From the NCBI GenBank assembly GCA_029561455.1, contig JAKQIY010000068.1:124001-188000 (forward strand): a stretch of DNA of 64,000 nt, given 5' to 3'. Of the stretch, positions 42,681 through 48,139 are shown in pieces; the first letter of the stretch is position 1; every line of letters begins with the position of its first letter. Source of the stretch: a bacterium. GTDB taxonomy: Bacteria > Zhuqueibacterota > Zhuqueibacteria > Residuimicrobiales > Krinioviventaceae. Under the pieces are notes generated by a model, which searched no databases, had not been told where the DNA came from, and saw only the letters and a list, made by a program, of their open reading frames with translations. Made by a program: the position numbers and the translations under genes.

Positions 42681-43436
42681 ATGCAACCCCTAATTGTGAT
42701 CGTTGTTTTGCTTGTATTATTGCTGACCAGCGCTATCAAAGTATTCCGCGAATATGAGCGCGGCGTTATTTTCAGACTAGGTCGTCTGGTCGATTATAAG
42801 GGCCCCGGCATATTCTTTATTATCCCGATCATTGACCGGGTCGTCAAGGTCAGTTTACGGGTAGTTACCCTGGATGTGCCTACCCAGGACATTATTACCA
42901 AAGACAATGTCTCCATCAAAGTGAATGCGGTTATCTTTTACCGCGTTGTTGAACCGAGTAAAGCAATTGTTGAAGTGGAAGATTATTTATATGCTACTTC
43001 GCAATTAGCGCAAACTACTCTGCGCAGCATTTTGGGCCAGGCAGAACTGGATGAATTGCTGGCGGAACGGGATAAGATCAACCAGGAATTGCAAAAAGTT
43101 ATCGATAAGCATACCGATCCCTGGGGTATAAAAGTGGTATCGGTTGAAGTCAAGCATGTGGACTTGCCGCCTGATATGCAGCGCGCCATGGCTAAACAGG
43201 CTGAAGCAGAACGCGAACGGCGCGCCAAAGTGATTCATGCGCTAGGCGAGTTTGAAGCATCCGAAACCCTGGCCAAAGCCGCCAATGTTATTTCCAAACA
43301 CCCACAGGCCCTGCAATTGCGCTATTTGCAGACCCTGTCCGAAGTCGCTTCGGAAAATAATTCCACCACCATCTTTCCGGTGCCGATTGATCTGATTGGG
43401 CCATTCCTGGAAGGAAAATTGAAAAAGGATAAATAA
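42681..43436 (+). CDS. Slipin (stomatin/prohibitin, SPFH family)
   Basis: 251 residues from ATG 42681, with a strong AAGGAGG at 42669-42675. A single N-terminal hydrophobic hairpin (about 3-19) is followed by the SPFH/band-7 domain ([47 protein letters not shown]) and a charged helical region ([20 protein letters not shown]). Slipins form ring-like membrane assemblies and partner with NfeD. Directly downstream of nfeD, so the two form an operon that probably ends at the hairpin 43444-43468. Confidence 0.93.
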
Positions 43437-43663: not shown

Positions 43664-43819
43664 GTGGATAATATGACCCTGATCGTGTTTATTGTTGTGT
43701 GGATTTTGTTACAGAAATTTATTTTGCCCCGGCTAGGCGTGCCCACCTGAATGTCCAATTCCTGTGATCTTCCGGTGGAAGATAAAAAAAAGAATAATGA
43801 GTTGATGGAGGAGAAGTAA
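43664..43819 (+). CDS. Candidate small membrane selenoprotein (in-frame TGA at 43748-43750)
   Basis: GTG 43664, with AGGAG at 43654-43658, opens a frame that encodes a membrane helix (MTLIVFIVVWILLQKFI) and then LPRLGVPT. It meets TGA at 43748-43750 and continues in the same frame as MSNSCDLPVEDKKKNNELMEEK to TAA at 43817-43819. Read through, it makes a 51-residue protein with UGA at position 29 and Cys at 34 (U-x4-C). A perfect 7-bp hairpin with loop GGT lies at 43767-43783, its loop 23 bases after the TGA, as expected for a bacterial SECIS. The FmdB-type gene starts 6 bases after the TAA and its ribosome site lies within the last codons of this frame, so both halves sit naturally in one operon. 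If TGA is a plain stop, this is a 28-residue peptide plus dead sequence. Function unknown. Confidence 0.6.
43767..43783 (+). promoter_or_regulatory. SECIS-like hairpin downstream of the in-frame TGA
   Basis: ATCTTCC (43767-43773) pairs perfectly with GGAAGAT (43777-43783) around the loop GGT. Known bacterial SECIS elements have a short stem and a small loop with a G among its first two bases, placed about 16-37 bases after the UGA. Here the loop begins 23 bases after it and starts GG, so spacing, loop size and loop sequence all fit. The hairpin lies inside the coding frame, as in bacteria. Confidence 0.6.
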
Positions 43820-43825
43820 CAATCT

Positions 43826-44041
43826 ATGCCAATCTATGAATACAAGTGTGCACACTGTAACCATATTTTTGAAGAGTTTCAAAAGTCCGGTGAAACCGGC
43901 GCTAATCTCAAATGCCCGGCCTGCGGAGCGACGGCCCCGGAAAAAATGTTTTCATCATTTGCCGCTTCCGGACTCGGCCACACGGCTTCCGGTTCCGGAT
44001 CTTCGTCAGGACATTCCTGCGGCTCCGGCGGCTTTGGCTGA
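43826..44041 (+). CDS. FmdB-family zinc ribbon protein
   Basis: 71 residues from ATG 43826; the ribosome site GGAGGAGAAG at 43807-43816 lies inside the preceding candidate selenoprotein frame. MPIYEYKCAHCNHIFEEFQ and LKCPACG give two Cys pairs of a zinc ribbon, followed by a flexible Ser/Gly tail with one more Cys (GHSCGSGGFG). The family is named after FmdB, found beside formamidase genes and proposed to be a regulator, but its real role is unknown. It probably forms a two-gene operon with the upstream small gene and ends at the hairpin 44052-44070. Confidence 0.88.
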   Translation: MPIYEYKCAHCNHIFEEFQKSGETGANLKCPACGATAPEKMFSSFAASGLGHTASGSGSSSGHSCGSGGFG

Positions 44042-44051
44042 GCGCATCGCT

Positions 44052-44073
44052 AAAGAACCGGTGGTTCTTTTAA
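44052..44073 (+). terminator. Hairpin after the FmdB-type gene
   Basis: AAAGAACC (44052-44059) pairs with GGTTCTTT (44063-44070) around loop GGT, followed by TAA. The T-rich side is part of the stem. It lies 11 bases after the FmdB stop and probably ends that transcript. Confidence 0.5.
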
Positions 44074-44322: not shown

Positions 44323-44526
44323 ATGAAAAAAATATATCGTATACTTTTAGGCGTTATAATCGGCGGCGCATTGGGCTTCGCTTATTATTATTTTATCGGC
44401 TGCAAATCCGGCGCTTGTCCCATTACCGGCAATCCCTGGATCAGCACGCTTTATGGCGCGGGTATGGGAGTTCTTTTTACAATGCCCGGTACCCCCAAAA
44501 AGGCCGGCAGCAGCCAGAATAGTTGA
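44323..44526 (+). CDS. Small membrane protein with GC..GxCPI motif (DUF6132-like)
   Basis: 67 residues from ATG 44323. Two membrane segments (about 5-22, ILLGVIIGGALGFAYYYF, and 41-54) flank the loop CKSGACPITGNPW, with two cysteines four residues apart. The layout and the CPITGNP segment resemble short Cys-containing membrane proteins that I recall as DUF6132; I am not certain of the family number. Proteins of this type often lie beside redox or rhodanese genes. Here a pentahaem cytochrome c follows after 24 bases, so the two may be cotranscribed and related in function. Confidence 0.7.
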   Translation: MKKIYRILLGVIIGGALGFAYYYFIGCKSGACPITGNPWISTLYGAGMGVLFTMPGTPKKAGSSQNS

Positions 44527-44550: not shown

Positions 44551-45678
44551 ATGACCATTAAACGCATAATACTCCTGGTGCTTGTACTAGCCGGAGCAAG
44601 TTTTTCCCAGGTTATTACCTCCGCACAGGAATGCAAGGACTGCCATTCGGTCATTTTTAATCACTGGCAAAAATCCCGTCATGCTTTATCGACGACGGAG
44701 CGGAGTCAAATATACCGGGCGATGTTTTCAGAAACCGATCAGGCGTCCCGGGCTGCATGTCAAAAATGCCATGAACCTTTAACCTCACCTGGGTTTGCCG
44801 ATCTCACCGGACCGAGGTTGCGCCAGGAAGGTATTACCTGCGATTTTTGCCATGCTACCGAATTGACCGGCAGCGGTTCAAATACTTGGTTCAAAGTTCT
44901 ACCCGGCAATGTCAAAACCGGTCCTTATAAGGATGCAATTCCCACTGCTCATGGCTTTAAATATTCAGCCGACCTTGGCAAGTCCTCATTTTGTCTGACC
45001 TGCCATAAAAATGATGATAACCCGCATGGAATAACATTTATTAACCTGGAAAAAGAATGGAAAAAAAGTTCCTATCATAAACTGAACATCACCTGCCAGG
45101 ATTGTCACATGCCGGCTATCAGTGGTATTACGGCCGAACTGGGAAAACTGCGCGACGAAACCTACAATCACCAGTTTTATGGCGGATTTAATAGTGAAAT
45201 TCTAACCGATTGCATCAAGCTAGATTTGCAAGCCGACAAAACCGGAAATGATTATTACCTGACCGTAAAAATCAGCAACCGAACCGCAGGACACGGCATC
45301 CCCGGCGCCTCGCCATTGCGGATGATTATTTTAAATATCGACGCCAAAGATGAATTGAAACAAACAGTGTGGAAAAATTATTACAATAATCCCCTCAAAG
45401 AAGACCCGCAGGGTGTGTTTATGAAGCTGTTTGAAGATCAAAACGGCCGCGCTCCGGCGCTGTTTTGGAAAGCCGCCGGTGAACGGTTCGATTCGCGTTT
45501 AATGCCGGATGAAGAACGGGTTTTAAAATATACCCTGCAAAACATCCCCGCCAAAACCATACAGGCTACAGTGGTTTATTATATTGCGCCGCCGCCATTG
45601 CTGCGTGAATTGAATATTACCGGTTCTTCGTATATTAAAACCAAAACGATTACCACCGCATCAATTACCTTACCATAA
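44551..45678 (+). CDS. Periplasmic pentahaem cytochrome c (cytochrome c554-like)
   Basis: 375 residues from ATG 44551. A signal peptide (about 5-20, ending near SFSQ) is followed by five CxxCH haem c sites: CKDCH 28-32, CQKCH 70-74, CDFCH 97-101, CLTCH 148-152 and CQDCH 182-186. The CKDCH..IFNHWQKSRHA opening is shared with cytochrome c554-type multihaem domains. The C-terminal half (about 200-375) has no haem site and looks beta-rich, perhaps a binding domain. Likely an electron carrier or a small reductase in the periplasm. No dedicated maturation genes are nearby. It ends at a strong bidirectional terminator. Confidence 0.9.
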   Translation: MTIKRIILLVLVLAGASFSQVITSAQECKDCHSVIFNHWQKSRHALSTTERSQIYRAMFSETDQASRAACQKCHEPLTSPGFADLTGPRLRQEGITCDFCHATELTGSGSNTWFKVLPGNVKTGPYKDAIPTAHGFKYSADLGKSSFCLTCHKNDDNPHGITFINLEKEWKKSSYHKLNITCQDCHMPAISGITAELGKLRDETYNHQFYGGFNSEILTDCIKLDLQADKTGNDYYLTVKISNRTAGHGIPGASPLRMIILNIDAKDELKQTVWKNYYNNPLKEDPQGVFMKLFEDQNGRAPALFWKAAGERFDSRLMPDEERVLKYTLQNIPAKTIQATVVYYIAPPPLLRELNITGSSYIKTKTITTASITLP

Positions 45679-45717
45679 AAAAGCCCGTGACTGTGAAAAA
45701 GTCACGGGCTTTTTTTT
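45677..45717. terminator. Bidirectional terminator between cytochrome and TonB receptor genes
   Basis: A perfect 16-bp stem, including the A and T runs (45677-45692 with 45700-45715), closes a 7-base loop and is followed by T residues in both directions. It lies between two convergent genes and overlaps the end of both, so it serves both transcripts. Confidence 0.92.
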
Positions 45718-48094
45718 AATATTGTAGTTGCCAACGAAATACAAAATTCCGTCCGGGCTCCATAGTGATCGCACCCCGGTTGGTGGAAAGATGGTTACGA
45801 TAGGATTTATCGGTTATATTTTCAATACCCAGGGTGAAACGGTTATCCAGTGACAGAAACTTTAGGGGATCGGTAGTCAGATGCAGGTTAAATGTTGTGT
45901 AACCACCAGTTTCGTATTCCCAGTCGGCAATGCGATCTTGTCCGGCGTACATAATAGCTGTTGCCTGGTAATTAATATACCGGATCACCCGGCCGGCAAG
46001 TCCTGCCCGGCCATTGAATGGCGCGATCAGTGGCAGCGGCACATCTTTATAGGTATCCTGTCCATGCACCCAGGCGGCGCCGCCGAATATCTGTAATTTG
46101 ATGTTAATGAAATACTGCACATCCAGATCGAATCCATACAACTCGGATGAACCGATATTGGTATTTTTCAGGGCATTGCGGCCTTCATGAGTTGACGGCA
46201 TTTCCACAACTTGATTTACAAGCCGGTTCAGGAATATGTCGCCGATGAATACGACCCGGTCATGATGAATTCGCACACCCAGATCGGTAAAAGTCCCGGT
46301 CTCCGGCTTCAACTCCGGATCGCCGATTTTAACCAGACTGCCCAGGTCGAGATAGGAATAACGTTCTTCCAGGTAGGGGGCACGGAACGACTTGCCCAGG
46401 GAGAATGACCAGTCGATATGCCGGGTCATTTTATATAATAATCCCAGGTTGCCGCTCCAGGAATGATTTTGCGCTTGCTTTTCTTGCCACAACACCGCCT
46501 GGTTTGCCGGAGAGTCGTTTCTTACACCATTAACAATTTGATACCAGGGATTTAGTGTTTCCTCATTGTTAATATCAATTTTATCGTAACGTCCACCCAG
46601 GGTCAGCGATATGTTTTTTAAGACTGAAAACTCATCCTGCAGGTAAACGCCGGCGCTGCGATAAGTGGAAATCGGCAGGGGCCGTTCACCGACAACCTGG
46701 GTAATTGACTGCTTGACCTCGCCGGTTGCCGGATTAAGAACATCAACTCGCAGATTTTTTTCGCGCTGGCTATCCAGTTCCTTTAGCCAGGCGTCGAGTC
46801 CGGCAATCACATGATGGTCATGCAGTAAAATCCAGTCTGTTTGCAGATTAACACCGCGGGCATCGTGGATAGCGTGGGGAGTTACGCTCAGAACATTGAT
46901 CCTTTTGGGCGGCTGGCCATTGCTTGCCGGGACATTAGTGACAGTATGGGGTATATTTTCCACATCACGCCAGATCTTTTGCTGGTAATATTTAACTGAC
47001 ACTAACGGCAAAACCGACAGCAAATTGCTGACCCGGTACTCGGCGCTGTACAATTCCCGCTTTTCCATGCGGTAACGCACATCGGCAATATCGGGAAACA
47101 GGGGATAGCCGCCGGGAATGCCAACATCATTCGCCAAAAAACGCTGATAATTGAATTTCAGTTCATGATTTGACAGGAAACGGAGGCCGGTTTTAGCGGC
47201 AATGTTTTCATCGCGGAACTGGCTGTTGGGTATTTCACCACTGGGAGTCGTTACATTTTCCGCGCTGCGTTTCATAGTGCTCAGCGACGCATACCAATGC
47301 GCGGCGCCGCCACTGAGCATTGCATAACCGGAACCGCTATTGTTTACCGAACTATAACCGCTATTAATATTCACATGGTAATAGGGTTTGCTGTTATAAT
47401 AGCCGTCATGGGTAATTACATTTACTACGCCGCCTACCGCCCCGGTGCCATATAACGAAGATGCCGCGCCCTTGACAACCTCGATCCGATCTACATCCTG
47501 CACATCGATCATGGAGAGCCCGGCTGCCAGGTCGGTTGCCGTATCGATGCGGTTGCCATCGACCAGCAGCACGACATTATTGCGGGAGAGTCCACGAATA
47601 TTAACATGTGTGCCCCACATACCATCGCGGGCCAAGGTAACGCCCGGTTGGGTATCAAGAGCTCCGGCAACATCCTGCGGTGCCGTTTTCATAATATCAT
47701 CTTTATCAACAACATTTAGCGGCATGGAAACATCCTGGAGATGTTTTTCATAGCGGGTGCCGGTAATAACGATTTCCTGCAGGGGAATTGTCATCGGCTG
47801 CATAGTAACAGTTAACCGGGCGGTTTCTTCCCCGGCAATCCGCACAGTTACCGTTTCCGGGCGGTACCCTATACAGGTAAAATGCACTTTGTATTCGCCG
47901 GGAGAAAGCGAGGTAATTCGAAATACGCCATCGTTATCCGAGGCCGTACCGTTTTGCTTATCCATCAACTTGATGTTAACGCTGCCCAGCGCCTGGTCAT
48001 GATCTGAACTTTTTACAACACCTTCAATGGAACCGGCAAAACTCATCGTAATAAATAGTAATGCATTGAAAATAATAGTCAATAGGGTTTTCAT
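45716..48094 (-). CDS. TonB-dependent outer-membrane receptor with carboxypeptidase-like domain
   Basis: 792 residues from ATG 48094 (minus strand), with AAGGATA upstream; a GTG one codon earlier is less likely. Signal peptide (about 1-20, ending MSFAGS), a carboxypeptidase-regulatory-like beta-sandwich (about 21-100, SIEGVVKSSDHDQALGSV), TonB box/plug region (EIVITGTRYEKHLQDVSMPL, LDTQPGVTL, NIRGLSRNNVVLLVDG, GAASSLYGTGAVGGVVNV) and a 22-strand barrel ending in an aromatic residue. This resembles the FCB type of siderophore, vitamin B12 or metal-chelate receptors. It lies 45 bases after the TM1266-type regulator gene, suggesting regulation or function linked to iron or Fe-S cofactors. Confidence 0.93.
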   Translation of the reverse strand: MKTLLTIIFNALLFITMSFAGSIEGVVKSSDHDQALGSVNIKLMDKQNGTASDNDGVFRITSLSPGEYKVHFTCIGYRPETVTVRIAGEETARLTVTMQPMTIPLQEIVITGTRYEKHLQDVSMPLNVVDKDDIMKTAPQDVAGALDTQPGVTLARDGMWGTHVNIRGLSRNNVVLLVDGNRIDTATDLAAGLSMIDVQDVDRIEVVKGAASSLYGTGAVGGVVNVITHDGYYNSKPYYHVNINSGYSSVNNSGSGYAMLSGGAAHWYASLSTMKRSAENVTTPSGEIPNSQFRDENIAAKTGLRFLSNHELKFNYQRFLANDVGIPGGYPLFPDIADVRYRMEKRELYSAEYRVSNLLSVLPLVSVKYYQQKIWRDVENIPHTVTNVPASNGQPPKRINVLSVTPHAIHDARGVNLQTDWILLHDHHVIAGLDAWLKELDSQREKNLRVDVLNPATGEVKQSITQVVGERPLPISTYRSAGVYLQDEFSVLKNISLTLGGRYDKIDINNEETLNPWYQIVNGVRNDSPANQAVLWQEKQAQNHSWSGNLGLLYKMTRHIDWSFSLGKSFRAPYLEERYSYLDLGSLVKIGDPELKPETGTFTDLGVRIHHDRVVFIGDIFLNRLVNQVVEMPSTHEGRNALKNTNIGSSELYGFDLDVQYFINIKLQIFGGAAWVHGQDTYKDVPLPLIAPFNGRAGLAGRVIRYINYQATAIMYAGQDRIADWEYETGGYTTFNLHLTTDPLKFLSLDNRFTLGIENITDKSYRNHLSTNRGAITMEPGRNFVFRWQLQY

Positions 48095-48139
48095 CACAGT
48101 TATCCTTTATAAATTATTATTCGATGTACACTGGTTTTT

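Follow-up and report, generated by a model that had tools for sequence, protein, structure and literature searches.

A short open reading frame on the forward strand at positions 43,664 to 43,819 of the window (the whole stretch of 64,000 nucleotides analysed here) almost certainly represents a family of membrane selenoproteins of about 50 residues, which the comparison of sequences places in no fewer than three bacterial phyla and which has apparently not been catalogued. No experiment has been performed and the incorporation of selenium is inferred; on the evidence laid out below, we are nevertheless highly confident that the in-frame UGA of this gene (43,748–43,750, forward strand) is recoded as selenocysteine (Sec). 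The adjoining FmdB gene seems to terminate with a selenocysteine of its own, for which we have a candidate codon.

The small gene and its homologues

The small gene lies between an NfeD/SPFH pair upstream and an FmdB-family zinc-ribbon gene downstream. Its GTG start at 43,664 is preceded by AGGAG, and its TAA stop (43,817–43,819) adjoins the ribosome site of the FmdB gene. Between them are encoded a single hydrophobic helix, the segment LPRLGVPT-U-MSNSC and a charged tail, the full translation being VDNMTLIVFIVVWILLQKFILPRLGVPT-U-MSNSCDLPVEDKKKNNELMEEK, where U, residue 29, corresponds to the TGA. An earlier note on this DNA had given coordinates for the start, TGA, stop and hairpin, all of which proved exact when the window was rechecked. 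Its reading of the UGA as selenocysteine is supported by the conservation of the TGA, the existence of Cys forms, the Sec machinery of the genome and a conserved SECIS-like hairpin.

A single-sequence search over 99 relatives returned matches down to E 4e-20, nearly all with one TGA at the same place, a pattern that is far above chance. A profile search of 82 genomes from the window's phylum detected the small family in 53, the codon being TGA in 51, TGC in one (G006) and TAA in one (G040). A second phylum contributes one genome with the TGA form (G087), and a third (that of G088) contributes 16 out of 39, all with TGA. In total, 68 genomes from three phyla, the window's own included, have TGA at the identical codon, and Cys replaces it in seven loci (L046, L050–L055). 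The earlier note had named homologues with Cys or TGA at position 29 as support for its reading, and both kinds exist. Homologues ending at LGVPT, which it would have taken as refutation, are not characteristic of the family; only the TAA form of G040 ends there.

Cys forms were sought in named genomes with a pattern that demanded Cys, near relatives being left out. They were found in a deltaproteobacterium, a Planctomycetales bacterium, two Kuenenia bins and bins labelled Chloroflexi and Cyanobacteriota. SelB was not over the cut-off in four of the six genomes with these named Cys forms. The other two, G141 and G145, encode Cys forms that keep a hairpin, CTGCTC-GGTT-GAGCAG or GCTGCTC-GGTC-GAGCAGC, similar to the ones found in L095 and L102, both Sec forms. 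It looks like a SECIS element left after replacement of Sec by Cys, which is an inference, as the encoded peptide is also similar. Four further matches of the scan (L056–L059) were dropped, the short motif having occurred by chance in unrelated frames.

In an alignment of 30 sequences the L, P, G, T, U/C and the C five residues further on are invariant, and the whole segment after the helix, LP[KR][LM]G[VI]PT-U-[ML]-S-x-x-C, is nearly so. The fifth codon past the TGA is TGC or TGT (Cys) in 48 of the 53 homologues, and the pN/pS of the small gene is 0.46 for the five codons after the TGA versus 0.51 before it.

Hairpin, selenocysteine machinery and decoding of the TGA

Seventeen nucleotides past the TGA begins a perfect 7-bp stem on the forward strand (43,767–43,783), in which ATCTTCC (43,767–43,773) pairs with GGAAGAT (43,777–43,783) around a GGT loop (43,774–43,776). 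The resemblance of this hairpin to a SECIS element, already pointed out in the earlier note, was borne out by its covariation, by pairing beyond the needs of the peptide and by its presence at the same position in another phylum. The covariation set comprised 45 ungapped sequences, eight Sec forms with a hairpin in another register having been left out. The seven stem pairs of the window are kept in 88.6% of its cells, and double-sided changes affect 60 cells versus 17.5 in shuffles. The covariation score of 0.557 (versus 0.233) was reached by 0 of 500 shuffles, and the signal was destroyed when the partner was slid by one base. Because the stem lies inside the coding region, synonymous-codon randomisation was also run on all 53 sequences; it gave 4.36 pairs (sd 0.13), fewer than the 5.60 of the real sequences. 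Stems such as GGGCCCGA-GGA-TCGGGCCC occupy the same position in the third phylum over a different peptide (CxxEDR, not CDLPxED); the predicted hairpin structure is kept where the protein sequence changes.

The earlier note was right that the window holds no selA, selB, selC or selD. SelA (571 bits), SelB (345 bits), SelD and a tRNA-Sec, the last called by both a covariance model and ARAGORN, are present elsewhere in the genome, so the absence of selB or tRNA-Sec, which would have counted against recoding, can be set aside. SelD itself carries an in-frame TGA, within KCAGUASK, followed by the hairpin GCAGTTTT-GGA-AAAACTGC, whose loop is of the same type as that of the small gene's hairpin; it serves as an internal positive control for what the SelB of this organism may accept. 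SelB was under the cut-off in nine genomes with the TGA form; seven of them have SelA and the remaining two are assemblies 73–78% complete.

Could the locus instead contain two short genes, a helix peptide ending at the TGA and a second product restarting at the ATG of TGAATG? Forty of the 53 homologues do have an ATG directly after the TGA, but in 12 of 53 the codon at this place is not ATG, GTG or TTG, and restart is consequently ruled out as a general explanation. Neither does it agree with the Cys forms, each of which is one continuous gene with the frame running straight through the site, with the retention of TGA itself in 51 of 53 members of the phylum and in every member from other phyla, or with the conservation of the hairpin as RNA. 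We thus regard restart as very improbable. Still less credible is a TGA that is merely leaky or is decoded as a standard amino acid, for instance Trp. The frame stays open beyond the TGA, as such decoding would have it, but the replacement residue in homologues is Cys and never Trp, the SECIS is conserved, and TGA is a normal stop in the window, since five of its long ORFs terminate with it. Insertion of selenocysteine remains the preferred reading. That the TGA is translated follows from the similar selection on the codons at both sides, the exclusion of restart and the uninterrupted Cys forms.

The two Cys forms from SelB-bearing genomes whose GGTT/GGTC-loop hairpins at the SECIS position may be fossil SECIS elements are L051:2501–2689 and L055:2–181.

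A candidate second selenocysteine in the FmdB gene

The FmdB-family zinc-ribbon gene occupies 43,826–44,053 on the forward strand when it is read through a TGA (44,039–44,041) to the TAA at 44,051–44,053. It matches TIGR02605 with 65.9 bits (curated cut-off 31.3) as well as PF09723, and alignment confirms the assignment; it has two CxxC pairs. The TGA lies in the C-terminal context GGFG-U-AHR and, judging from the comparison of tails that follows, is a candidate Sec codon. The earlier note, which held for the features of the small ORF, had overlooked it.

The stop through which the FmdB frame was read is TGA in 36 of 36 intact copies, from which the Cys form of G004 and a frame-broken copy of G061 had been set aside; the long ORFs of the window terminate with TAA in 30 cases, TGA in five and TAG in three. 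F-[TSG] always precedes this TGA, and the codon after it encodes Gly in 20 copies, Ala in 15 and Ser in one. A second in-frame stop follows 1–3 codons beyond in all 36, and all have a Cys 5–9 residues before the TGA, giving the tail motif C-x(5-9)-U-[G/A/S]-x-stop. The hairpin just after the TGA has a mean score of 16.2 over the 36 loci versus 6.5 ± 0.84 in dinucleotide shuffles. Its representative in the window, the candidate second SECIS AAAGAACC-GGT-GGTTCTTT (44,052–44,070, forward strand), lies for the most part past the true FmdB stop. The tail of the G004 protein (L036), SCAGGCCCGN, has Cys at about the Sec site, and paralogous FmdB proteins terminate in Cys, e.g. SCSGCTSKNCASCH.

If FmdB simply ended at 44,039–44,041, the hairpin could be a transcription terminator, and in the window the stem is indeed followed by a short T-rich stretch. 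Most of the stems, however, lack a T run. Such an ending would also have to accommodate a stop that is TGA in every copy although TAA dominates among the long ORFs of the window, a following residue confined to G, A or S, the further stop and the preceding Cys found throughout, and the Cys-terminated FmdB proteins of relatives. We find it improbable and favour a C-terminal selenocysteine.

About 45 genomes of the window's phylum carry this TGA-tailed form, FmdB-U, the tails having been read for most but not all of the 82. Across the 82 genomes, FmdB-U and the small selenoprotein are both present in 41 and both absent from 27, one being found without the other in 10 and 4 (Fisher p = 2e-9, relatedness ignored). 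No match to FmdB was obtained in plasmids, and none to the small protein in viral contigs or plasmids; viral contigs gave FmdB matches.

Animal thioredoxin reductase has a C-terminal GCUG. Like FmdB-U, it thus has Sec near the C-terminus with a Cys nearby; the two proteins are unrelated, and the Cys–Sec spacing is longer in FmdB-U. An FmdB-family selenoprotein was reported earlier from the GOS survey, with a CxxU/UxxU motif in two reads (PMC2398784; PMC13188914). It is a member of the zinc-ribbon family to which the downstream gene of the window belongs, and is likewise described as containing Sec. FmdB-U has C-x(5-9)-[GP]F[TSG]-U close to its C-terminus instead, and in our alignment the residue three places before U is not Cys, so that the CxxU motif is absent; an overlap of the two groups is nevertheless not excluded.

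In G040, TAA stands at the small-protein site (L105, G040:C54), and a separate FmdB-U (L226, G040:C153) is without its Cys and strong hairpin. Joint decay of the two genes is possible there, although SelA and SelB are present.

Gene neighbourhood and possible function

Linkage identifies two further recurrent neighbours on the forward strand, a DUF6132 small membrane protein with GCKSGACPIT (44,323–44,526; PF19628) and a multihaem c-type cytochrome (44,551–45,678; PF13435). The SPFH/Band 7 protein upstream (42,681–43,436, forward strand; PF01145) is linked in the window's order only. In loci of the window's phylum, FmdB-U is directly downstream of the small gene in most cases and DUF6132 is present in many, up to about 600 nt away on either side, with the multihaem cytochrome beyond; a CoA-disulfide-reductase-like flavoprotein belongs to the cluster in G001, G013 and G020. 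Thioredoxin is immediately downstream of the small gene in five of seven loci tested in the third phylum, and the FmdB-U gene of G060 is directly preceded by a thioredoxin-like ORF containing WCAPC, read by eye. The gene order in the deltaproteobacterium is thioredoxin, DUF6132, small Cys protein, DsbD-thioredoxin. Among 94 neighbouring proteins, thioredoxin is the commonest Pfam domain (8 members). Other forms of the small family adjoin rhodanese-YgaP, MBL-rhodanese, DsrE, TauE, sulfur-transport, DUF302 and ArsR genes, the ArsR-type regulators being those next to L053, L054 and L109.

The mean charge is -1.0 before the helix and +1.04 after it (25 members), which suggests that the tail is cytoplasmic (N-out/C-in), a topology predicted from the helix flanks alone. 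Structure modelling of six sequences placed the helix at residues 2–23, with a mean pLDDT of 64.5 and poor confidence beyond the helix.

We propose that SelB-dependent recoding of the UGA, directed by the hairpin 17 nt downstream, would yield a 51-residue single-span selenoprotein with its conserved U-x4-C segment, just after the helix, presumably facing the cytoplasm. There, U29 and C34 would probably form a reversible selenenylsulfide, which is an inference. The small gene is usually beside FmdB-U, and thioredoxin takes the FmdB-U slot in another phylum; a membrane-anchored relay is inferred, with thioredoxin or FmdB-U at one end, membrane partners such as DUF6132 and DsbD at the other, and reducing equivalents or sulfane sulfur passing between them. 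A thiol/sulfur redox role is proposed because of the thioredoxin, DsbD, rhodanese, DsrE and disulfide-reductase neighbours. Since function is inferred from neighbours only, the assignment of the small protein as a membrane-anchored selenol/thiol relay is tentative, falling a little short of an even chance, and the same evidence makes sulfur as its substrate possible at best. A two-selenoprotein relay, in which the U-x4-C protein and FmdB-U exchange electrons or sulfane sulfur directly and FmdB-U replaces thioredoxin, is speculative and somewhat unlikely.

The tail might, on the other hand, serve in metal handling or regulation, for example as a site for zinc or heavy metals that it has in common with FmdB, and not in a redox relay. 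FmdB is a zinc ribbon and three of the small-family loci (L053, L054, L109) have ArsR-type regulators beside them, which would suit this role. However, ArsR-type regulators sense persulfides too, and the thioredoxin, DsbD, rhodanese, DsrE and disulfide-reductase neighbours favour thiol redox. We consider a metal-handling or regulatory tail unlikely, without dismissing it.

No Pfam or NCBIfam model covers the small protein, and Rfam gave chance matches only, with no model for the small gene. A table of prokaryotic selenoproteins from 2026, with 119 families and subfamilies (PMC13188914), is without a single-helix U-x4-C family of some 50 residues, and a full-text search of open-access papers found no description of the small family, by which an earlier mention is not excluded. 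The family has in common with other bacterial selenoproteins the use of UGA as Sec, a downstream SECIS, Cys homologues and Sec machinery, but is unlike every tabulated family (PMC13188914). The rhodanese/DsbD fusion-like TsoB (NF045694) has a tabulated UxxxxU spacing equal to that of U-x4-C and shares the sulfur and DsbD context, but is a large fusion protein; the small family itself matches no NCBIfam model. The small protein is a new family within a known class, the selenoproteins; the operon with two Sec codons is more surprising.

This analysis adds one well-supported selenoprotein family and probably also a variant of the common zinc ribbon FmdB that carries a Sec tail. The two genes have been overlooked because a TGA splits or truncates very short genes. 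As each is present in over half of the genomes sampled from the window's phylum, selenium use there is likely to be underestimated. FmdB, DUF6132 and the tiny membrane protein, whose roles are all unknown, gain one shared testable hypothesis, and if the two-selenoprotein relay is true, a whole small-protein redox chain escapes current annotation.

None of the papers searched describes DUF6132. This protein (GCxSGxCPIT; also L050:2251–2460) accompanies Sec and Cys forms alike, and in L247 (G034:C75) it is followed by a Sec-tailed FmdB without the small selenoprotein in between. On the reverse strand of the window, a TonB-dependent-receptor-like protein (45,716–48,097) faces the operon, and a similar ORF is at the same place in G001.
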